Origin: Arenicella chitinivorans | Lineage (GTDB): Bacteria; Pseudomonadota; Gammaproteobacteria; Arenicellales; Arenicellaceae | Direction: 5' to 3' | Length of the DNA stretch: 64,000 nucleotides | Assembly (NCBI RefSeq): GCF_014651515.1 | Contig: NZ_BMXA01000001.1 | Coordinates: 558,001-622,000 of the forward strand | Shown here: piece after piece, positions 4,084 to 36,677 of the stretch | Numbering within the stretch: position 1 is the first letter of the stretch | Layout: each line of letters starts with the position of its first letter | Notes under the pieces: model-generated | What the model was told of the DNA's origin: nothing | Seen by the model: only the letters and a program-made list of their open reading frames with translations | Databases searched by the model: none | Position numbers and translations under genes: made by a program

Positions 4084-5205
4084 ATGGGTGATAAACCACA
4101 AACTGACTCCGACGAGCTGGTCGCATTGCGCGCAAAAATTGATGCTTTCGATCAGCAAATATTGCGGCTGATACAACAGCGCGTGCTAGTCGCGGCGGAT
4201 ATCGCCAAGGCCAAGGTCGCGAGTGATGCTGATGCATCGTTTTATCGCCCAGAGCGTGAAGCGCAGGTCTTGCGTCGGGTTCGCGAGCGCAATGCCGTGT
4301 TGCGCGAGGAGCTGCATGGGTTAGTGTCTGATGATGAAATGGTGCGCCTCATGCGCGAGATCATGTCGACATCACTGGCGGCTGAAATGCCGATGACGGT
4401 GGCCTATTTAGGGCCGGAAGGGACCTATACTCAAGCGGCGGTGGTTAAGCATTTTGGTCAAGCAGTGCGTAGTCTTGATGTAAAAACCATTCCGGATGTA
4501 TTCCGAGTCGTTGAGCAGCGCAAAGCGCATTTTGGCGTTGTGCCGGTGGAAAACTCAACAGAAGGTATTATCACGCACACTCTGGATTGCTTTTCTTCAT
4601 CCAATCTCAAGGTCTGTGGTGAGGTTCAATTGCCAATCAGTCATCAATTGTTGAGTAATGCTGATGGTCTGACAAATGTGCAGAAAGTGTATGCGCATCC
4701 TCAGGCGCTCGCGCAGTGTCGTGAGTGGTTGGAACGTTATTTGCCGGACGCCGAAATATTGACCGCCAGCAGTAATGCAGAGGCGGCGATTATTGCCTCT
4801 AAAGACCCGGCAGTGGCGGCCATTGCCAGTGACATTGCTGGGCGCTTATACAATATCAATATCCTAGCTTCCGGCATTGAGGATGAGCGCAACAATACCA
4901 CGCGGTTTTTGATTATCGGCACCGACAGCTATGCGGCTAGCGGTGAAGATAAAACCACCATTATGGTATCGGCACCGAATAAAGTGGGCAGCCTGTTTGA
5001 ACTATTAAAGCCTTTGTACGATGCCGGCGTCGATATGAGTCGAATTGAGTCTCGACCGAGTCGGCAAACCAATTGGGAGTATGTGTTTTTCATCGATCTC
5101 ATTGGGCATGTCGATGACCAAGGGGTGTCGGCCGCTCTGGAAGAGTTAAAGGCCAAATCCGCCTACTTTAAGCTAATTGGTTCTTACCCGGTCGGCGTTT
5201 TATAA
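4084..5205 (+). CDS. pheA: Bifunctional chorismate mutase / prephenate dehydratase
   Basis: P-protein that converts chorismate to prephenate and then to phenylpyruvate. It has 373 aa with an N-terminal AroQ-type mutase (about 10-95), a dehydratase domain starting at VAYLGPEGTYTQAA (about 104), the dehydratase motif NNTTRFL, and a C-terminal ACT domain (about 295-373) containing IESRPSR, the usual phenylalanine-sensing region. It lies 26 bp after serA and 24 bp before tyrA. No hisC is found between pheA and tyrA, unlike in Pseudomonas. Confidence 0.97.
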   Translation: MGDKPQTDSDELVALRAKIDAFDQQILRLIQQRVLVAADIAKAKVASDADASFYRPEREAQVLRRVRERNAVLREELHGLVSDDEMVRLMREIMSTSLAAEMPMTVAYLGPEGTYTQAAVVKHFGQAVRSLDVKTIPDVFRVVEQRKAHFGVVPVENSTEGIITHTLDCFSSSNLKVCGEVQLPISHQLLSNADGLTNVQKVYAHPQALAQCREWLERYLPDAEILTASSNAEAAIIASKDPAVAAIASDIAGRLYNINILASGIEDERNNTTRFLIIGTDSYAASGEDKTTIMVSAPNKVGSLFELLKPLYDAGVDMSRIESRPSRQTNWEYVFFIDLIGHVDDQGVSAALEELKAKSAYFKLIGSYPVGVL

Positions 5206-5229
5206 CCCCGGTCGTCGTTTCTTTTTCTT

Positions 5230-6123
5230 ATGTTTAATCAAGTCACGATTGTCGGAACAGGCTTGCTTGGTGGTTCGCTGGCACGTGACCTGCGTGAGCA
5301 GCGGTTGGCTAGGCTTCTTGTCGGTGTATGCCGATCAAGCGAAACCGCGCAAGAAACATTGGACGCAGGCGTTGTAGACGTGGTGCTGCCGCTCACTCAA
5401 GCGGTACAGGATGCTGACCTGGTGGTGCTTGCAACGCCGATGCAGGCGATGCTGTCCGTCATCACTGAGATGAGAACACATTTGCCGCCCGCTGCGATCA
5501 TAACCGACGTCGGTAGTGTTAAAACGGACCTTTATAACCAATTGAAGCAGCAGGTGCCGGATATTCTGCCGCAATTTGTTTTGGCTCACCCGATTGCAGG
5601 TGGCGAAAACTCTGGTGTATCGGCATCTAAGCTTAAGCTATTTCAAAATAAGCATGTGATCATCACGCAGACAACCGAAGTTGATGTGCAGATGACATCG
5701 ATAGTGGTGGACATGTGGCAGCGTTTGGGCGCTCACGTGTTATCCATGAGCTTGCAGGAACATGACGCAATTTTTGCCAAAACCAGTCACTTGCCACACG
5801 TGATTGCATTTAGTTTGGTTAATTTTTTGAGTCATCAGCCCGATCGTGAGCGATTATTTGACTTGGCCGCCGCAGGTTTTTACGATTTTACGCGCATCGC
5901 ATCAAGCAATGCTGAGATGTGGCGTGATATCTGTGTTACCAATCGTGAACAAGTTCTCGCCGCGCTCGATGGTTTTCATGCGCAAATTGAAGGCATTCGT
6001 GATCTGGTGGCCAACGCAGACCAGGCGGCCATCCTTGAGTATTTCGGCGCGGCGAAAGCGGCACGCGATGCCGGGCTGATAAAGCGCGCAGAGGCAATTG
6101 CGCAGGCTCAGGATACTGATTAA
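5230..6123 (+). CDS. tyrA: Prephenate / arogenate dehydrogenase
   Basis: Oxidative decarboxylation of prephenate (or arogenate) toward tyrosine. The 297-aa protein begins with a dinucleotide-binding motif GTGLLGGSLAR at about residues 10-20 and carries the HPIAGGENSG motif of the TyrA family. It has no chorismate mutase domain, so it is the cyclohexadienyl-dehydrogenase form and not the enteric fusion. It sits in line between pheA and aroA. Specificity for prephenate versus arogenate cannot be read from sequence here. Confidence 0.94.
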   Translation: MFNQVTIVGTGLLGGSLARDLREQRLARLLVGVCRSSETAQETLDAGVVDVVLPLTQAVQDADLVVLATPMQAMLSVITEMRTHLPPAAIITDVGSVKTDLYNQLKQQVPDILPQFVLAHPIAGGENSGVSASKLKLFQNKHVIITQTTEVDVQMTSIVVDMWQRLGAHVLSMSLQEHDAIFAKTSHLPHVIAFSLVNFLSHQPDRERLFDLAAAGFYDFTRIASSNAEMWRDICVTNREQVLAALDGFHAQIEGIRDLVANADQAAILEYFGAAKAARDAGLIKRAEAIAQAQDTD

Positions 6124-6173
6124 CGAGACAATTGAGACAGTGCGCCCAGCGCCAGAGAGAAGAGCGATTAACT

Positions 6174-7496
6174 ATGAGTGTGAATTCGACATTATCGTCT
6201 AAAAAGGCGGCGAATGCATTGAACGGTGCCTTGCGTGTACCCGGCGACAAGTCTATGTCTCACCGTGCAGTGATGTTTTCATCTTTGGCCGAGGGCACGA
6301 GTCATATTACTGGGTTGCTTGAAGGCGAGGATGTTATGGCCACTCTGGCAGCATTTCGTGCGATGGGCGTGCAAGCCGAAGGGCCAAATAACGGTGACCT
6401 GGTGATCCATGGGGTCGGTATGCGTGGACTTAACGCGCCTAAAGTGGATCTGGATATGGGTAATTCCGGTACCGCTATGCGATTGATGACCGGGATTCTT
6501 GCTGCACAAAGTTTTGCTTCCAAGCTGGTTGGTGATGCATCGCTGTCAAAACGGCCCATGCGTCGCGTCACAGTTCCGTTGACTTCAATGGGAGCGCGTT
6601 GTGCGACCGATGATAATGGTTGCCCACCAATTCATATCCGCGGTGTTGAGCGTTTGCAACCGATTAGCTACAAGTTGCCTATGGCGAGTGCACAGATTAA
6701 GTCTGCAGTGTTGTTGGCCGGTTTGTATGCCGATGGTGAAACCTCCGTCACGGAACCCGCGCCAACGCGTGACCATACCGAACGAATGTTAAAAGCATAC
6801 GGCTACGAATGTGACTCAGAAAAGGTCAATGACCAGGTCACCACGATTCGCTTATCTGGTGGTGGCAAGTTAACGGCCACGGATATTGATATTCCAGCCG
6901 ATATTTCGTCTGCTGCCTTTTTTATGGTGGCAGCATCCATCGTGCCGGGTTCATTAATTGTTTTGGAGCATGTGTGTATTAACCCAACTCGGACCGGAGT
7001 CATCGATATTCTTAAGGCCATGGGCGCGGACATTAAACTGTTGAACCCGCGTGCTATCGGTGGAGAGCCGGTAGCGGACATCCAAGTGAAGTACGTTGGG
7101 CTGAAAGGGTGTGAAATTGACCCTAATTTGGTGCCGCTCGCCATCGATGAGTTTCCCGTATTGTGCGTGGCTGCCGCATGTGCTGATGGTCAAACCGTGA
7201 TATCCGGTGCAGAAGAGTTACGACACAAAGAATCCGATCGTATTTCCAGCATGGTCGAAGGTTTGCGTAATATTGGTGTGGAAGTCGAAGAGCGCCGGGA
7301 TGGTATGTTGGTTCAGGGCGGTGCGATTCGCGGCGGCACGGTTGAGAGTTACCACGATCACCGTATTGCCATGTCGTTTGCGATTGCTGGCGGCGTTTGT
7401 ACTGATAAAATTGTTATCAATGGCGCGGAAACAGTAGCCACGTCGTTCCCAAATTTTGTAAAACTCGCTACGGCGGTAGGGTTGCGCATTGAGTAA
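6174..7496 (+). CDS. aroA: 3-phosphoshikimate 1-carboxyvinyltransferase (EPSP synthase)
   Basis: Sixth step of the shikimate pathway, joining PEP and shikimate-3-phosphate. The ATG at 6174 follows GAGAGAAGAG and gives 440 aa; an upstream in-frame TTG at 6132 is less likely. Conserved features are PGDKSMSHR near the N terminus, GNSGTAMRL, SKRPMRRV and the C-terminal DHRIAMSF. A glycine stands where glyphosate-sensitive enzymes have GNAGTAMR, here read GNSGTAMR, so residue 2 of the motif is Ser instead of Ala. Its last codons overlap cmk by 8 bp. Confidence 0.96.
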   Translation: MSVNSTLSSKKAANALNGALRVPGDKSMSHRAVMFSSLAEGTSHITGLLEGEDVMATLAAFRAMGVQAEGPNNGDLVIHGVGMRGLNAPKVDLDMGNSGTAMRLMTGILAAQSFASKLVGDASLSKRPMRRVTVPLTSMGARCATDDNGCPPIHIRGVERLQPISYKLPMASAQIKSAVLLAGLYADGETSVTEPAPTRDHTERMLKAYGYECDSEKVNDQVTTIRLSGGGKLTATDIDIPADISSAAFFMVAASIVPGSLIVLEHVCINPTRTGVIDILKAMGADIKLLNPRAIGGEPVADIQVKYVGLKGCEIDPNLVPLAIDEFPVLCVAAACADGQTVISGAEELRHKESDRISSMVEGLRNIGVEVEERRDGMLVQGGAIRGGTVESYHDHRIAMSFAIAGGVCTDKIVINGAETVATSFPNFVKLATAVGLRIE

Positions 7497-8172
7497 GACA
7501 ACACCTTTGCCGCCAGTGCTGGCGCTGGACGGACCGAGCGGTTCTGGAAAAGGAACCATTGGGCAAATATGTGCGTTAAAATTTGGTTGGCACTACTTAG
7601 ATAGTGGCGCGATTTATCGTGGACTGGCTTGGCTGGCGAACTCCAAATCCGTCGCTGCAGATGACGTTGCAGGTCTCGTGGCGCTTGCCGAGAGCATGTC
7701 TCTGGTGTGTCATGTGCAGACCGACGACGTGGCTCAAATCGAAATTAATGGGCGTATTGTCACAGACGATTTGCGCACAGAAGAGACCGGCGAAATGGCC
7801 AGTAAAATTGCGCCACTTGGGTCGGTCAGAGCAGCCTTGCTGGCAATGCAACGTCGGTGTCGACGCACGCCTGGTTTGGTCGCGGATGGCCGTGATATGG
7901 GCACGGTCGTGTTCCCTGATGCAGAATTTAAGGTGTTTTTGACCGCAAGCGCGGAAATTCGGGCACAAAGGCGTTTCGATCAGTTGAAATCAAAAGGTTT
8001 CGATGTTAACCTCGCGCGCCTGTTAGAGTCGATCCAGGCCCGTGACGTCCGAGATTCGAGCCGCGCAGAATCTCCGCTTAAACCTGCGGATGACGCGTAT
8101 GTGCTTGATACTTCAGCGCTGTCTATTGATGAAGTCGTTGCGTGTATAATGGATCATGTAAATCAACGCTGA
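7489..8172 (+). CDS. cmk: Cytidylate kinase
   Basis: Phosphorylates CMP and dCMP to the diphosphates with ATP. The 227-aa protein has its P-loop at GPSGSGKGT (about residues 15-23) and the RDMGTVVFPDA segment typical of Cmk. The start is a TTG that overlaps the end of aroA by 8 bp, which implies translational coupling. The aroA-cmk-rpsA order is standard. Weaker alternative starts inside would lose the P-loop context. Confidence 0.95.
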   Translation: MSKTTPLPPVLALDGPSGSGKGTIGQICALKFGWHYLDSGAIYRGLAWLANSKSVAADDVAGLVALAESMSLVCHVQTDDVAQIEINGRIVTDDLRTEETGEMASKIAPLGSVRAALLAMQRRCRRTPGLVADGRDMGTVVFPDAEFKVFLTASAEIRAQRRFDQLKSKGFDVNLARLLESIQARDVRDSSRAESPLKPADDAYVLDTSALSIDEVVACIMDHVNQR

Positions 8173-28334: not shown

Positions 28335-28755
28335 AAGTACTACTTAAACCGTCGTTTCGTTCGACCCTTCTTAGACTTCGGTTTGTTGCTCTGTCGTGCT
28401 GACGCTGCTCTGACGCCGTCTCAGGCGCTTTATTACAGTGGTCAGCGCTCTGGAGCTAAGATTCATTGGTTAGTGTTAACCAAGCTTTTACCCCACTTAA
28501 ATAACAGCCGTTGAGCGCATGCTCACATCAGGTTTCGTATCAAGGTCGCAGTTGATCACTCTTGCTGGTTCCAAATCTTCTGCCTGATGTCTAAATTCAT
28601 TATTACTTTGAAAACGCAATTTCTTAGTAACGAAACCATTTTTACCTTAAATTTGTTTATTCGTTCAACTGTCTATTTTTCATAATCGCCCAAATCCGGG
28701 TTTTTATGGGTCAAAACTCCCGTCGTAAATCTAGACACATACTTTGGAGTACGTT

Positions 28756-29781
28756 ATGCATCATTCATTAATAAGCAAGGTTAAAATTTGTTCAAGTGGC
28801 GTTTACTTTCCTGATGAAATCGTAAAATCAGACGACCTTTTCGCTGAGATCAACTCGGACTCTCAGTACGATATTCCCCGTAACTGGATGTCGAGTGTGA
28901 TGGGGATTTCGGAGCGTCGAATGGCTCCGGATTCAGCTAAGCCGTCAGATTTGGCGATACCCGCAGCGCGTCAAGCGCTGGCTAGTGCCGCTGAGGTCGA
29001 TTCGCAAGATATTGATTTGGTTATTTTTTGTGGAATAGAACGCGACCAGTCCGAGCCCGCGACTGCCCATACCATCCAAAACGCATTAGGTTTGAATGCG
29101 CGTTATACCTTTGACATTGCAAATGCTTGTTTTGGCTTTGTTGATGCCATGCAGATCGCGACAAATTACATCCGCTGTGGTATCGTAAGGAACGCATTAG
29201 TTACGACTGGCGAAGTGCCGACTCGTGTTCTCAAAGCCGCTGTCAAGCAGTTAAAAGGCGGTGTTGATATTAAGACAGCACGAAATATTATCGGGGCATT
29301 GTCGGTTGGTGATGCAGGCGGGGCGGTTGTTTTGGGTGCGACACCCAAAAACAGTAAATCTGGCTTTGAACTGTTTAATACAGTTTCTTACAGTAGTCAC
29401 GTCGATAAATGCATTTACAAACAACGTGAAGACGGTTCAATTGAGGGGCAGATGTTAATGGGTTTGATTGCCGGCGCCATTGTAAGGTCCCATTTTGGAC
29501 TCATCAATGACACGCTTAAGCAATTGGGCTGGAGCGAGTTTGACTGGTTGCTGAGCCATCAAATCGGTCAGCGCCCGTTTGATAAGCTATCGCGTCTTGA
29601 AGGTGTTCAACCGAACAAGATGGTCAAAACGTTGGATAAGTTTGGCAATATTACCTCGGCGACTTTCCCAGTGAATTTTCACAAACTGGCAGAGTCAGGA
29701 GAAGTAAAGCGAGGTGATCGAGTCGGTGGTTGTTTTGCCGGATCAGGGTTGGTTATAGGTCAGTTCGGTTACACCTATTAA
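28756..29781 (+). CDS. FabH-like 3-oxoacyl-ACP synthase III family protein
   Basis: Thiolase-fold ketosynthase of 341 aa; the ATG at 28756 follows GGAG by 7 bp. The FabH triad is complete: Cys125 in NACFGF, His268 in SHQIG and Asn298 in GNITSATFP. It should therefore condense an acyl thioester with a malonyl unit or a similar acceptor. It does not lie in a fab cluster: there is no plsX, fabD or acpP nearby, so it is unlikely to be the housekeeping FabH. Proteins of this kind also make secondary products and acyl-derived signals (PqsD, DarB and PpyS types). The gene downstream encodes a seven-TM protein with a DNA-binding tail, 219 bp away. Confidence 0.85.
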   Translation: MHHSLISKVKICSSGVYFPDEIVKSDDLFAEINSDSQYDIPRNWMSSVMGISERRMAPDSAKPSDLAIPAARQALASAAEVDSQDIDLVIFCGIERDQSEPATAHTIQNALGLNARYTFDIANACFGFVDAMQIATNYIRCGIVRNALVTTGEVPTRVLKAAVKQLKGGVDIKTARNIIGALSVGDAGGAVVLGATPKNSKSGFELFNTVSYSSHVDKCIYKQREDGSIEGQMLMGLIAGAIVRSHFGLINDTLKQLGWSEFDWLLSHQIGQRPFDKLSRLEGVQPNKMVKTLDKFGNITSATFPVNFHKLAESGEVKRGDRVGGCFAGSGLVIGQFGYTY

Positions 29782-30000
29782 CTATTAACGTATCTGGCAG
29801 ATCCGCGAGCTAGTCGAATAAATGGCGACAAGTACCGCGCTTTGTAGTCCATTGCTGACACTCAAATTTCTCTGTAGGTGCGTGGATCCAGCTTAGACTG
29901 TGATTCACGTACTTAGAACAGCAACGGTGTTTGGGTGTAAGTGATGTTTTGCCGGCGTCTCTGTGTTGCCAATGTGAGCGAACTTGAGAGGGGACGTATT

Positions 30001-30906
30001 ATGAATTTATATATTCTGCCAGCTTTGATCGCCTTACTGATCAAAGTTGGGGTACTGGTGGTTGCACATCGTAGTGAAAAACATTCGCCAGCTTTTATAA
30101 AGTTGGTGTTGGTGTTTGCCTTGCACAATTTGTGCGAAGTGTTGTTGTTTATCGAATTCTTCCTCGCAGGCAATAATGATTTGACCCTGCGGGCATATTA
30201 CGTCAGTTCGGTCTGGGGTTTAGTGTTTGTGTTGCTGTATGGGATGGAGGTCGCTCACTATAAACAACAGGCTATTCGCACAGCTGCTCTCGGTGCCGCA
30301 ACCTTATTGTCAGTTGTCATACTCGGTAGTGGTTACATCGTCGCTGGCAGTCATGCCATCGGTTACGTTTTTACGGCAACCAAAGGACCACTTTATTTGC
30401 TGTTTCAGGCTTACTCCATGGTCACTATGATGGCTGTGTTTGCGATACTGATTTATGGGTATCGACGCGCTAAGTCGCATATGGCAGAGATTCAATGTTT
30501 GTCCACGGTCACGTCATTTTTGCCCCTAATTGTGTTGAGTGTGCTGATCATGACACTAATGAATTTAGGCTACCAAATAAACGCCACGGCCATCTTACCG
30601 ATTGCGACTTCAGCTTTCTTGTGCATTCTTTTATTGACTGAATCGCACCACCGTTTAACTGATATTCGACGCTATCTTCCTGGTTCACCGGAACGTCGAA
30701 CATCGAATGAAATAATGGAGATATTTTCCCGTTATTCGAGAGACGACATGGAGTATCGTGCAGCAGTGAGTGAAATTGAGAAGATGTTGGTATTACACAA
30801 GTATCAGAAGAACAATCGCAACGCGAGTGCCACGGCGCAGCTGATGGGCATGCCACGCTCATCACTGTATTCGATTTTTAACCGACTCAAGATCGAAGAT
30901 AAGTAA
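30001..30906 (+). CDS. Seven-TM membrane protein with C-terminal Fis-type HTH
   Basis: From the ATG at 30001, which follows GAGAGGGGAC, the protein has 301 aa. Seven hydrophobic helices fill about residues 4-215 in an arrangement resembling sensor 7TM domains of histidine kinases. A charged cytoplasmic linker follows, and the last 28 residues (ATAQLMGMPRSSLYSIFNRL) form a Fis/HTH_8-type helix-turn-helix. No kinase or receiver is present, so it would be a membrane-bound one-component regulator. It follows the FabH-like gene on the same strand. Its ligand and targets are unknown; the ketosynthase product is a candidate signal by context only. Confidence 0.75.
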   Translation: MNLYILPALIALLIKVGVLVVAHRSEKHSPAFIKLVLVFALHNLCEVLLFIEFFLAGNNDLTLRAYYVSSVWGLVFVLLYGMEVAHYKQQAIRTAALGAATLLSVVILGSGYIVAGSHAIGYVFTATKGPLYLLFQAYSMVTMMAVFAILIYGYRRAKSHMAEIQCLSTVTSFLPLIVLSVLIMTLMNLGYQINATAILPIATSAFLCILLLTESHHRLTDIRRYLPGSPERRTSNEIMEIFSRYSRDDMEYRAAVSEIEKMLVLHKYQKNNRNASATAQLMGMPRSSLYSIFNRLKIEDK

Positions 30907-31390: not shown

Positions 31391-31963
31391 CTAACTCGAA
31401 CTGAGGCAGCGAGAACGCTGTTTTTTGTTCAGTTTTCTACTCGTTCTCGCGCGCCCAGTATGCAGTAGTCGAATGTAGGCCTCTTTTTCGCTGTTCGCGC
31501 TACACACGTAAAACCCAGCGCTGCGCGCATGACCATCGGCAAAAAAGCGGAGGCGTCCACGCTGGTTGAAGGTTACTCTCACGCCGTCGTCGCCATCATA
31601 CGTACGAATCAGTTGATCTGAGCTGTCTAGGCGGTTGTTCCCGTTGGCATCTGCATACAGAATCCATCCGTAGCGCCAATTCATGTTTGCGTGGCGGTTC
31701 GGTTCGCATTCAGTCATGCTGGCGTCGGCCGCAGCGCATACCGTAACGATCTCATGATGCGTGATCGCGTGCGTGCGTGCCTGGTACAACGCCGTATGCA
31801 ACGCACTGGCTTTGGTGCTAATGCGCGTATTTGTTATTAAGGTGCCGAAACTGGGGACTGCAATCGTAGTGACGACGCCAACTAGAGCGACCGTGATCAT
31901 TAATTCCAGCAATGTGAATCCACGTAGCCTGATCGCACGCGTACGAGTGTGTGGTATAAGCAT
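31391..31963 (-). CDS. FimT/GspH-type pseudopilin
   Basis: A 190-aa type IV prepilin-like protein. The class III signal has Gly15/Phe16 as the cleavage junction, Glu20 at position +5 (FTLLELMITV) and a hydrophobic helix to about residue 36; the C-terminal part is the GspH-type beta domain with paired cysteines. Such minor pilins prime type IV pili or type II secretion pseudopili. It is a single gene here, with no other pil or gsp gene, transcribed away from uvrB. It may contribute to DNA uptake, as FimT does in some gammaproteobacteria, but this is inference. Confidence 0.88.
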   Translation of the reverse strand: MLIPHTRTRAIRLRGFTLLELMITVALVGVVTTIAVPSFGTLITNTRISTKASALHTALYQARTHAITHHEIVTVCAAADASMTECEPNRHANMNWRYGWILYADANGNNRLDSSDQLIRTYDGDDGVRVTFNQRGRLRFFADGHARSAGFYVCSANSEKEAYIRLLHTGRARTSRKLNKKQRSRCLSSS

Positions 31964-34235: not shown

Positions 34236-34997
34236 ATGATGGAGACCGTTGAGTTATCGATGATATCGATTCTGGTGCTCGTGCTGATTGCGGTCGTGGC
34301 CGGTTATATCGATACGCTGGTTGGCGGCGGCGGGTTGATTACCATTCCGGCGTTGTTGGCGGCAGGCATTCCACCAATAGTTGCATTGGGCACCAATAAG
34401 TTGCAGGCCGTGGCTGGTAGCGGTACCGCATCGCTGACCTTATTGCTTAAAGGAAAAGTGCAGTTCTCTGAGGTGCGCTGGTGGATGTTGGCTGCGTTTA
34501 TAGGGTCCGCGATTGGTTCGGTTGCGGTCCAATTTATTGACAGCGGTGCGTTACGGGTGATTATCCCAGTCGTCCTAGTGGGGATCGCAATCTATTTTTT
34601 GTTTATGCCGCGAAATATCGAACCAGACCGAAAGCCGCGGCTAAATCGCACGGCCTATGGATTAAGCGCCGTGCCTGGTGTTGGCTTTTACGATGGCATG
34701 TTTGGTCCTGGTACCGGGTCGTTTTTTGTGTGGGCTGGCGTCGCCTTACGCGGCCAGACCATGGTGCCGGCCACGATCGTTGCCAAAACGCTGAATTTTG
34801 CCACCAATGTCGCTTCGCTCTTGGTGTTTGTTGCCTTTGGCAAAGTGTTGTGGTTGGTCGGTGGTGCCATGATCGTAGGTCAGTTTATTGGCGCCAGTCT
34901 CGGTGCGCGGACCTTGCTCAAAATTGATCCCTCGGTGCTGCGCTATTTGGTTATCCTAATGTGTGGAATTATTCTCTTGGCATGGTGGCGCCAATGA
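34236..34997 (+). CDS. TSUP/TauE-SafE family membrane permease (YfcA-like)
   Basis: A 253-aa integral membrane protein with about eight TM helices and the two half-repeats of the sulfite exporter TauE/SafE family (DTLVGGGGLITIPALL in the first, DGMFGPGTGSFF in the second). It is expected to move a sulfur-containing or carboxylated anion; the substrate is not readable. Two ATG codons begin the frame. It ends 22 bp before the ECF sigma gene, so cotranscription is possible. Confidence 0.9.
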   Translation: MMETVELSMISILVLVLIAVVAGYIDTLVGGGGLITIPALLAAGIPPIVALGTNKLQAVAGSGTASLTLLLKGKVQFSEVRWWMLAAFIGSAIGSVAVQFIDSGALRVIIPVVLVGIAIYFLFMPRNIEPDRKPRLNRTAYGLSAVPGVGFYDGMFGPGTGSFFVWAGVALRGQTMVPATIVAKTLNFATNVASLLVFVAFGKVLWLVGGAMIVGQFIGASLGARTLLKIDPSVLRYLVILMCGIILLAWWRQ

Positions 34998-35019
34998 GTG
35001 GTTTGCACCGCAGGACCGC

Positions 35020-35631
35020 ATGGGGCGCACTGGTTTGACTGATCAAATCGCATCCGAGTTTTTAAAGTATCGTCGAGTGATTGCATCGCTTTTGCGCAAG
35101 TTGCGTCCGCGCGCCAGTGTACAGGACATCGAGGATATTCTGCAGGAAACCTACATCAACACCTACCAGTCATCATTGAAGCAGGACATAGCGTTTCCTA
35201 AGGCATTTATGGTGAAAACGGCTATCCGGCTGGCCAATCGACATATCTCAGTCGCGCAGCGGGTTGATTGCGATGAAATGATTGAGGAACGTTCAGATGA
35301 ACATGGTCTGCTGTTTAATGCACAACAGTTTGCCAGTCAAACTGAGCAAGAAGTTTTGAGTCGAGAAGAGTTTGGTTTCCTGTGTGAGGCGGTCAGTGAG
35401 TTGCCGACACAGTGTCGTAAAGTTTTTATTTTAAAAAAAGTGTACGGCTTATCACAGCGTGAAATAGCCAAACGACTGGGGATCAGTGAAAGCACGGTTG
35501 AGAAACACGTAGCAAAAGGTTTGTTGAGAACCATACAAAGCTATAACGCACAACACATGGAGGCGGGCGACGCGAGTCCAGCACCCGTGTACGATTTAAG
35601 CGCGGCCAAAGGCGGTCGCGGACAAAGGTAG
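35020..35631 (+). CDS. ECF-type RNA polymerase sigma factor (FecI-like)
   Basis: Alternative sigma factor of 203 aa from the ATG at 35020; AGGA lies only 4 bp upstream, so the start is uncertain, and a longer frame overlaps the permease gene. Region 2 includes DIEDILQETYINTY and region 4 the HTH KKVYGLSQREIAKRLGISES. The C-terminal tail (PAPVYDLSAAKG) is outside the sigma fold. The following genes encode a FecR protein and an STN-TonB receptor, so this is the sigma factor of a cell-surface signalling system. Confidence 0.93.
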   Translation: MGRTGLTDQIASEFLKYRRVIASLLRKLRPRASVQDIEDILQETYINTYQSSLKQDIAFPKAFMVKTAIRLANRHISVAQRVDCDEMIEERSDEHGLLFNAQQFASQTEQEVLSREEFGFLCEAVSELPTQCRKVFILKKVYGLSQREIAKRLGISESTVEKHVAKGLLRTIQSYNAQHMEAGDASPAPVYDLSAAKGGRGQR

Positions 35632-35636
35632 AACGC

Positions 35637-36677
35637 ATGCAGACGTTATTATTTCCAAACCAAGAGGCAGTTATTAGTCGCGCCACGAACTGGATTGCCA
35701 AAATAGATCGCGGCTTGAACGCTGAGGAACAGCGTTCGCTGGCCCAGTGGCTGGAAGAGTCACCGCACCACGGTGACGCGCTTGTTCAGTGTGCCTCGAT
35801 GTGGGATATGCTGGATATCTTGCAGCCGATCTCTAAGTTGATGCCGATGCGGGATTTTCAACTCGAAGCGGACGTAGCCGTGGGGAGTAGATTCAGGTTC
35901 GGTCGTGTGCTAGGTGTTGCACTCGCGGCGTCGGTGGCCGTCGTCACTGCGGTGAGCGTGATTGCATTTTTACCACAGTCACAGACCTATCATGTGCCCG
36001 AGACTGCGCATACGGCGCCCCGAATTATTCAGCATTACCAAACGGGTGTTGGCGAGACCACGGTGTTCGCACTCAGTGACGGGAGTCTGATGCAGTTAAA
36101 TACCGACTCCAAAGTGGCGGTTGAATACACGTCGAGCGCACGTAATATCACTTTGTTGCAGGGCGAAGTCTATGTGGATGTGGCGAAAGATGCCAGTAAA
36201 CCGTTTACGGTGGAGTCAGGGGTAGATAGGGTCACCGCCATTGGGACTGCATTCAGCGTCGATCGACGTGGCGACGATGAGACTGAAGTTATTGTCACCG
36301 AGGGTACGGTGCGTGTGAATCGACGTGCGGATGCGCCGAGTCAGCGGTACGACGATTTATATTTAACCCCCGGGCAGCGATTGTTGGTTGGTGAAGCCCG
36401 CCCTCGGTTGTCGGTAGATGATGATCCAGAAAGTGCCCTGGCTTGGCGTGAGGGCATGATTGTATTTCGCGGCGAGCCGCTGCGTGAGGCGATCCGTGAA
36501 ATTGATCGCTACACGCCATTGTCCTTTGAAATCGCCGATCCACAGCTGGCGGAGATTCCGGTAGGTGGGTATTTTAAGACTGGTGATCTAGATCAATTGC
36601 TGGCAATTCTAGAACAAAACTTCGGCGTGGCACATACCCGGCACGGCACTCGGGTTATGCTGGCTCGCGCATATTAA
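35637..36677 (+). CDS. FecR-family anti-sigma regulator
   Basis: Single-pass inner-membrane signal relay of 346 aa. The N-terminal cytoplasmic part carries the DUF4880-like WIAKIDRGLNAEEQRSLAQWLEES motif, a TM helix lies at about 88-108, the FecR beta domain spans about 125-225 (LLQGEVYVDVAKDASKPF), and the C-terminal secretin-like domain ends the protein. It begins 5 bp after the sigma factor stop. By analogy with FecR it would hold or activate the sigma factor on receiving a signal from the receptor plug. Confidence 0.93.
   Translation: MQTLLFPNQEAVISRATNWIAKIDRGLNAEEQRSLAQWLEESPHHGDALVQCASMWDMLDILQPISKLMPMRDFQLEADVAVGSRFRFGRVLGVALAASVAVVTAVSVIAFLPQSQTYHVPETAHTAPRIIQHYQTGVGETTVFALSDGSLMQLNTDSKVAVEYTSSARNITLLQGEVYVDVAKDASKPFTVESGVDRVTAIGTAFSVDRRGDDETEVIVTEGTVRVNRRADAPSQRYDDLYLTPGQRLLVGEARPRLSVDDDPESALAWREGMIVFRGEPLREAIREIDRYTPLSFEIADPQLAEIPVGGYFKTGDLDQLLAILEQNFGVAHTRHGTRVMLARAY

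Follow-up and report, generated by a model that had tools for sequence, protein, structure and literature searches.

A ketosynthase gene linked to a seven-helix membrane regulator in Arenicella chitinivorans: a candidate lipid synthase-receptor module

In a stretch of 64,000 nucleotides from the gammaproteobacterium Arenicella chitinivorans (contig NZ_BMXA01000001.1, positions 558,001 to 622,000; here called the window, with positions counted from its first letter), a ketosynthase (KS) gene is followed by a gene for a protein with seven transmembrane helices (7TM) and a C-terminal helix-turn-helix (HTH). The locus raises the question whether the two genes belong together and, if so, whether the cell makes and senses a signal of its own, as the original prediction from the sequence had suggested. 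We assign a probability of about 0.58 to the reading that they form a two-gene synthase-receptor module, i.e. a lipid synthase combined with a membrane-embedded one-component receptor that would control the synthase promoter. The genome is 4.03 Mb in size and 99.6% complete. The two genes are:

28756..29781, + strand: ketosynthase (KS) gene, OleA/PpyS (Glu) type, 341 amino acids (aa), with C125, H268, N298 and E100
30001..30906, + strand: membrane regulator gene, 301 aa, with seven transmembrane helices (residues 6-217), a linker and an HTH

The open reading frames (ORFs) run from ATG 28756 to the stop at 29781 and from ATG 30001 to the stop at 30906. They lie on one strand and are separated by a gap of 219 bp, in which no terminator-like site was found on the + strand. 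Across 69 measured pairs the median gap was 87 bp, with three pairs overlapping by 22 bp, and 66 pairs were co-oriented; co-transcription is therefore probably the rule. Since the other three pairs were encoded on opposite strands (two convergent, L127 and L131, and one divergent with an ORF between the genes), operon inertia alone is insufficient to account for the linkage.

Linkage was counted in two sets. The near-relative set comprised 61 genomes (the window's own and 60 relatives), with a threshold of E <= 2e-59 for the KS clade. All 33 clade KS genes of this set, one of them split across two contigs, adjoined a 7TM gene with a Fis-type HTH, in G057 with a single intervening ORF. Counted per genome, both genes were found in 20, the regulator only in five, the KS only in none, and neither gene in 36 (Fisher p = 8.5e-12, uncorrected for phylogeny). 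For this count, G023, which has an HTH-only match, was excluded from the regulators, and G004, in which a 94-aa KS remnant lies next to an intact regulator, was entered as regulator-only. For the second set, a species-genome collection was scanned; it yielded 243 relatives, and the 80 best loci were analyzed. Apart from five actinobacterial outgroup KSs without a regulator and three loci at a contig edge (L138, L158, and L190), 72 loci were testable, and 71 of them had a 7TM protein near the KS; this number includes a 7TM protein truncated by the contig end (L143), a broken KS (L189), and a pair with an intervening ORF (L164). Because the two sets have many loci in common (L117-L137 from Arenicella, as well as L161, L164, L171, L173-L175, and L177), the counts of 33/33 and 71/72 are not independent. 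Among control KS loci, a 7TM match was detected in none of 23 (15 of the FabH clade, L105, L106, the OleA-like L112, and the five actinobacterial ones; flanks of 1.5 kb were used for the FabH clade and L112). On these linkage counts and control loci, chance adjacency was rejected, and the supposition that the two genes co-occur beyond chance was confirmed.

In a KS tree of 96 rows, built without PpyS, the 7TM-linked KSs formed one clade of 71 rows (support 99/98), and a long-branched OleA-like row was adjacent to it. The 7TM part accompanies the KS in both size classes of the regulator, about 300 and about 870 aa long. A second, diverged pair is present in the window's genome, and its genes are adjacent as well (KS at C3:90393-91391, 54% identical; regulator at C3:91425-92312, 37%). 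In the Arenicellaceae, 28 locus records, including the KS remnant L071, fell into 16 contexts by common flanking genes (15 if the halves of the split gene are merged). The module is a conserved, repeatedly relocated two-gene unit. At L163, L165, L168, L177, and L181, two regulators each surround one KS. Extra 7TM-HTH genes around a single KS were also observed at L187 and L156, and some of them are divergently transcribed. As far as sequences can carry it, the pairing claim appears to be about as strong as possible: the synthase gene is linked to a regulator gene, and the regulator would be its cognate receptor.

The KS matched both Pfam domains above their cut-offs (ACP_syn_III with 43.6 bits, ACP_syn_III_C with 56.4 bits). 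Of its triad C125-H268-N298, the cysteine and asparagine were found in all 76 aligned sequences (window counted) and the histidine in 75, in line with the complete C-H-N triad initially claimed. The description as FabH-like was upheld for the fold, but not for the key residue, which is of the OleA/PpyS type rather than FabH- or PqsD-like. Against the FabH model TIGR00747, the KS scored 149.7 bits and missed the curated cut-off of 292.1. At the position of E100, all 76 aligned KSs (the window and the five actinobacterial sequences counted) have Glu, whereas the FabH-clade controls have Phe (15 of 15); seven of these controls score above the FabH cut-off, and the remainder cluster with those seven in the tree. 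E100 aligns with the column of OleA E117 (Glu in wild-type OleA, Asp in the E117D entry 5vxh). The KS thus has the C-H-N triad together with the Glu equivalent to OleA E117 and PpyS E105 that defines the Glu type. In profile comparisons with solved structures, OleA from Xanthomonas campestris was the best match (E 4.9e-54; 4.6e-47 for the best FabH and 6.3e-31 for PqsD). When the structure model (pLDDT 95.3) was compared by Foldseek, OleA entries reached TM-scores of 0.87-0.91 by query length and FabH entries 0.81-0.84 (50 rows); in order of E-value, OleA was at the top and FabH entries were interleaved from rank 3 on. The Glu of OleA and PpyS extends into the neighboring subunit and deprotonates the bound acyl chain, and it is missing in FabH; the E105A variant of PpyS yielded no photopyrone, the Glu being needed for photopyrone formation (PMC4578411). 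Since E100 represents this extra catalytic Glu, a head-to-head condensation of two acyl chains is the probable reaction of the KS. Its catalytic residues and fold are evident from alignment and model, from which its chemistry and product are predicted.

Two parts of the regulator are relevant for a role as receptor:

30016..30651, + strand: seven-helix domain, candidate sensor (residues 6-217), with the polar residues K15, N43, E46, Y66, and Y132; from the structure model and conservation
30754..30903, + strand: C-terminal Fis/NtrC-type helix-turn-helix (residues 252-301); from profiles and the structure model

The AlphaFold2 model (pLDDT 90.6, pTM 0.79) consists of seven long helices and the C-terminal HTH, with a two-strand hairpin between helices 4 and 5. 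The window regulator matched HisKA_7TM (PF16927) with 26.5 bits (E 6.9e-6), under the gathering score of 28.6, which was exceeded by relatives (L152, 35.2 bits; the second regulator of L165, 33.5 bits); at E <= 0.01, 22 of 56 regulator sequences contained this domain. In a search of the whole genome, the window regulator was the sole HisKA_7TM match; the second regulator of the genome is too diverged to be recognized by this model. No kinase or receiver domain was detected in the window regulator at E <= 1. Taken alone, its HTH is weak (E 0.04-0.07), but HTH_8 (Fis/NtrC type) was found in 44 of the 56 short regulator forms at E <= 0.01, and the family profile matched solved DNA-binding domains of the NtrC family and Fis. 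Model and family profiles therefore bear out the predicted layout of seven helices, no kinase or receiver, and a Fis-type HTH at the end.

Within the seven-helix domain, E46 in helix 2 was present in all 56 regulators (window counted), Y66 and Y132 in 52 each, K15 in 51, and N43 in 50. Because these conserved polar residues cluster inside the membrane in the model, they plausibly form a ligand site. A Foldseek search with the regulator gave no matches at E <= 0.001, and the rows shown were G-protein-coupled receptors (GPCRs) throughout. VIA-align superimposed the regulator on GPCRs with Z up to 17.9 (222 residues, root-mean-square deviation 3.6, identity about 10%); as judged from the model, this likeness is one of common helix arrangement and no evidence of kinship. 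In some lineages (L097-L100, L102, L161, L169, L171, L173-L175, L180, L182, L184, and L186), the regulator is about 830-890 aa long, with an identical layout of 7TM start and Fis end. HTH_8 was found in five of five long forms scanned, and the long middle of the forms scanned had no Pfam matches. A GAF domain read by eye in the ~870-aa forms was rejected, as Pfam reported none at E <= 0.01. The C-terminal part of the one ~870-aa protein scanned matched sigma-54 activator profiles and resembles a remnant of such an activator. Given this part and the equal start and end, the 300-aa regulator may be a shortened descendant of the ~870-aa form.

Upstream of the KS gene lies a candidate site through which the regulator could act on the module:

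28666..28686, + strand: 21-bp promoter box CAAC-TGTCTATTTTTCATAAT, a candidate operator located 70-90 bp 5' of the KS start
28721..28737, + strand: imperfect second half-site pair CGTC...AGACA, tentative; several relatives have the inverted repeat TGTCT-N6-AGACA here, shortly before the ribosome-binding site

KS groups were picked by eye from the tree and the contexts. Group A is the window's KS clade. Ten of its 11 upstream regions contain the consensus CAACTGTCTATTTTTCRTAAT, starting 90-92 bp ahead of the start codon; the eleventh (L089) has a weaker copy of the box at -102. Pairwise identity within the box was 86%, compared with 32% before and 32% after it (10 sequences, L089 omitted). The best 16-mer in nine sequences (including L123, the equivalent of L089) had 11 total mismatches versus 41.7 +/- 1.3 in 30 re-optimized shuffles (minimum 39); shuffles ignore common ancestry, for which the flank comparison corrects partly, best for group A. 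In the window's genome, the 17-base core has no exact site other than the one in the KS promoter; there are two one-mismatch sites, both inside ORFs, and a reversed control pattern had one match. The core occurred at 13 sites in 15 other genomes, nine in group-A KS promoters, one in an empty slot of G003, and three elsewhere, so that 9 of 10 group-A KS promoters had a core site (G014 lacking it); the control pattern had one match in the 15 genomes. The box is nearly confined to the module. A site for the HTH upstream of the KS, anticipated in the original prediction, thus has a candidate in this conserved operator-like box.

The box probably overlaps the -35 region. A scan for the sigma-70 consensus upstream of the KS found no sites; by eye, most relatives have an extended -10 (TTGCTAATATG-like) 3' of the box and no good -35. 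The inverted repeat TGTCT-N6-AGACA is perfect in L082 and L076 and has one or two mismatches in L068, L072, and L065. Upstream blocks of other sequence were found in group D (ATTTCATTTTTGAAAT; 35 versus 60.1 +/- 1.8 mismatches in shuffles), group E (TAAATCGATGTTTTAC; 9 versus 29.4 +/- 1.6; with the palindrome TTTCATTAATGAAA alongside), and group F (TCAATATTTTGAACTA; 12 versus 34.7 +/- 1.1). Box identity in these groups was 86-90%, compared with 33-69% in the 30-bp flanks (computed from seven of 12 loci in group D, six of seven in group E, and all seven in group F), the 3' flank of group E being conserved too (69%). The HTH sequences of groups D, E, and F differ likewise.

Judging by record titles, the lineages with the module comprise Arenicella, Marinomonas, Motiliproteus, Exilibacterium, Pseudohongiella, Pseudomonadales, Acidiferrobacteraceae, and bins labeled SAR86; one further matching bin (L158) is labeled Nitrospirae. 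The KS clade is rare in even samples: at phylum level (E <= 1e-70), the window's own genome was the only one of 398, and at class level (E <= 1e-55), 7 of 369 genomes had a match, four of them outside the genus. Three of these four had a 7TM neighbor; the fourth, the OleA-like KS of G424, had none. The window slot, between a nitroreductase gene and a GspH-like pilin gene, also holds the pair in G005 and G013. In G007 (L075), it contains the regulator alone, with a box recognizable by eye upstream. In G003 (L222, C41:20204), the slot, identified by eye from its neighbors, keeps the promoter box, with no KS or regulator match at E <= 1e-3; it seems to be a relic switch that has lost both genes. 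Regulators without a KS were found at nine loci in the 61 genomes (L070, L075, L079, L081, L083, L093, L096, L103, and L104), some of which lie on short contigs. LuxR solos are a known case in which receivers outnumber makers. At L189 (positions 4941-8033, Motiliproteus sp. MSK22-1), the KS frame is in two pieces and is followed by two intact tandem 7TM-HTH genes.

In the module that we propose, the KS would condense two acyl thioesters head to head via C125-H268-N298, and E100, reaching over from the partner subunit of the dimer, would act as the base that activates the alpha-carbon. The product would be a small lipid (a beta-keto acid, ketone, or alpha-pyrone). In view of the near-invariable linkage of KS and regulator, we infer that this product enters the inner membrane, where the seven-helix domain of the adjacent regulator would bind it; the N-terminus of the regulator would be outside and its HTH inside. 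Ligand binding would then alter the HTH dimer on the box ahead of the KS gene. Because the promoters of the relatives have an extended -10 and no good -35, this putative autoregulation would more likely be an activation with positive feedback. Regulators without a KS might listen to the same product or to that of a neighbor, in which case the module would serve cell-cell communication. More tentatively, and at somewhat less than even odds, the pairs could represent a widespread self-signaling family, with a lipid autoinducer made by a Glu-type KS, a seven-helix receptor of GPCR-like arrangement that is itself the transcription factor, solo receptors, and lineage-specific boxes.

Several observations weigh against the proposed module. 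On the side of the linkage, the KS of L159 has no 7TM neighbor within 5 kb on each side; it is nested in the 7TM-linked clade, and its genome encodes one regulator on a different contig. The divergence of KS and regulator is correlated (r = 0.75 for 70 pairs in a mirror-tree test), which speaks for the module but proves co-inheritance only, since linked genes co-diverge even without functional contact. HTH_8 had no match in 12 of the 56 short regulator forms. As for the promoter, (i) the window does not fit the TGTCT-N6-AGACA pattern, and a second site of this kind was rejected there; (ii) its -10 is, by eye, poorer than those of the relatives; (iii) groups C and H have no upstream block above shuffles, and group B is too small for a judgment; (iv) a different regulator could bind the box; (v) box and HTH clade are phylogenetically confounded; and (vi) no high-stringency target of the box was found beyond the module itself. 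Finally, largely similar traces would be expected from a feedback loop on a non-diffusing lipid or from a pathway-specific regulator.

The first of these two readings is a possible but less probable explanation, to which we give roughly one chance in four. The KS would make a lipid or ketone for its own cell, and the 7TM-HTH protein would sense membrane acyl content or the product solely to set KS expression, with nothing exported. This would agree with the confinement of the high-stringency conserved targets to module promoters, with a predicted product that would be very lipophilic, and with pairs that are mostly close and co-oriented (66/69). It accounts less well for the distribution of the genes: solo regulators are common while a KS hardly ever lacks an adjacent regulator, loci in which two regulators surround one KS are more readily explained by receivers than by homeostasis, and some genomes hold two or three diverged pairs where others have none. 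The second reading, a secondary-metabolite module in which the KS makes an alpha-pyrone-like antibiotic and the 7TM-HTH protein acts as pathway-specific regulator or self-protection sensor, appears unlikely. The closest enzyme class of the KS includes PyrS, which makes pseudopyronines (PMC4578411). The patchy distribution in many contexts would suit it as well, and so would the recurrence near Arenicella genes of short-chain dehydrogenases (SDRs) and acyl-CoA dehydrogenases, with raw counts of nine locus records (including two control KS loci) and five, respectively. No one third gene, however, accompanies most pairs, the other recurrent neighbors resemble positional orthologues within a lineage, and solo regulators fit signaling better. 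As most neighbors are unannotated, genes for transport or resistance may be among them.

The KS might also substitute for FabH as fatty-acid starter in a fabH-less lineage, with the regulator tuning it to the state of the membrane. TIGR00747 matches above the cut-off were found in none of 19 Arenicellaceae genomes compared with 10 of 12 other genomes, and the family seems to have lost canonical FabH. The fab cluster of the genome is on a different contig from the window (G000 C6:1-20000, L208), which agrees with the initial statement that the KS lies outside any fatty-acid cluster; it contains a FabF-type gene identified by profile, genes that we take from their sequences to be plsX, fabD, and fabG, and no ketosynthase III. 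The best argument for a substitution is that the window's genome has no ketosynthase III beyond the two paired KSs, which are its only TIGR00747 matches. It is nevertheless highly improbable, and was rejected on score, key residue, genome distribution, and the fatty-acid synthesis cluster. E100 stands in place of Phe; 12 of the 19 Arenicellaceae genomes have another, more distant ketosynthase III below the cut-off; and no clade KS is present in the congener G015 (99% complete) or in G019 from the same family (97%), while other genomes carry two or three. A better candidate is a 631-aa ketosynthase I/II-type protein, presumably FabY-like, which is encoded about 5 kb beyond plsX and may start fatty-acid synthesis. 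Absent from G015, below the FabH cut-off and away from the fab cluster, the KS is to all appearances dispensable in the genus.

The neighbors of the window pair encode a ferredoxin, a nitroreductase, and a GspH-like pilin. The last is a lone GspH/type IV pilin-like gene (31391-31963) between the pair and a gene that is presumably uvrB. At 34963-36677, a gene for an ECF sigma factor precedes one for a FecR-type anti-sigma protein; a 916-aa ORF comes next. At L076 (998-6242), genes for an acyl-CoA dehydrogenase, two SDRs, an APH-family kinase, and a phosphatase as well as an 89-aa ORF without a Pfam match lie upstream of the KS; the KSs of L076 and L082 are closest to that of the window, and these upstream genes are possibly a source of acyl-CoA substrate. 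A biosynthetic operon was not counted as part of the module, as the full set was seen in these two loci only and the recurrence of SDR and acyl-CoA dehydrogenase relatives near other loci is a raw count. A composite transposon around the pair, considered because of duplicated flanks (L095/L094), was rejected; the members scanned were a LysR regulator and a flavoprotein.

Taken together, the two genes look like a hitherto undescribed system by which a cell would produce a lipid message and perceive it itself. No pairing of a KS with a 7TM-HTH regulator was described in the open-licence literature searched, mostly titles and abstracts, so that this absence is weak evidence. To our knowledge, little is known about cell-cell signaling in Arenicella, Pseudohongiella, Marinomonas, Exilibacterium, and the bins labeled SAR86. 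If the proposed module is real, it would represent a new signaling architecture of Gram-negative bacteria, joining a lipid synthase to a receptor that leads from membrane ligand to DNA in one protein and needs no kinase, receiver, or cytosolic LuxR-type sensor. The module can be tested directly, as its promoter box and catalytic residues are defined and named strains are available; in the seven-helix core, mutations could be aimed specifically at the conserved E46 and K15.

Parts of the module have counterparts in known systems. OleA of Xanthomonas campestris, from olefin biosynthesis, shares with the KS the thiolase fold, the C-H-N triad, and the Glu (E117 and E100, respectively). OleA is accompanied by OleBCD, whereas the partner of the KS is a 7TM-HTH regulator and the neighbors in the window are not Ole genes; no OleB, OleC, or OleD was found among the neighbors of the window pair, the rest of the genome not having been searched. 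PpyS/PluR of Photorhabdus and PyrS resemble the KS as head-to-head ketosynthases of the Glu class. Photopyrones are signals and PluR is a LuxR-like receptor (PMC4578411); unlike PluR, the receptor candidate here spans the membrane several times and carries a Fis HTH, and its gene adjoins that of the synthase. The match of the seven-helix domain to the HisKA_7TM histidine kinases is one of 7TM sequence, the domain being fused here to an HTH and not to a kinase. In CqsA/CqsS and LqsA/LqsS, the synthase of a lipidic autoinducer is encoded beside a membrane receptor, but these synthases are from a different family and their receptors are histidine kinases; the arrangement of a synthase beside a membrane protein is similar, while the regulator described here has no kinase or receiver match. 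CadC and ToxR are membrane-bound one-component regulators with one transmembrane helix and an N-terminal winged HTH. Like them, the regulator of the window combines a sensor and a DNA-binding domain in one membrane protein, here with seven helices and a C-terminal Fis HTH.

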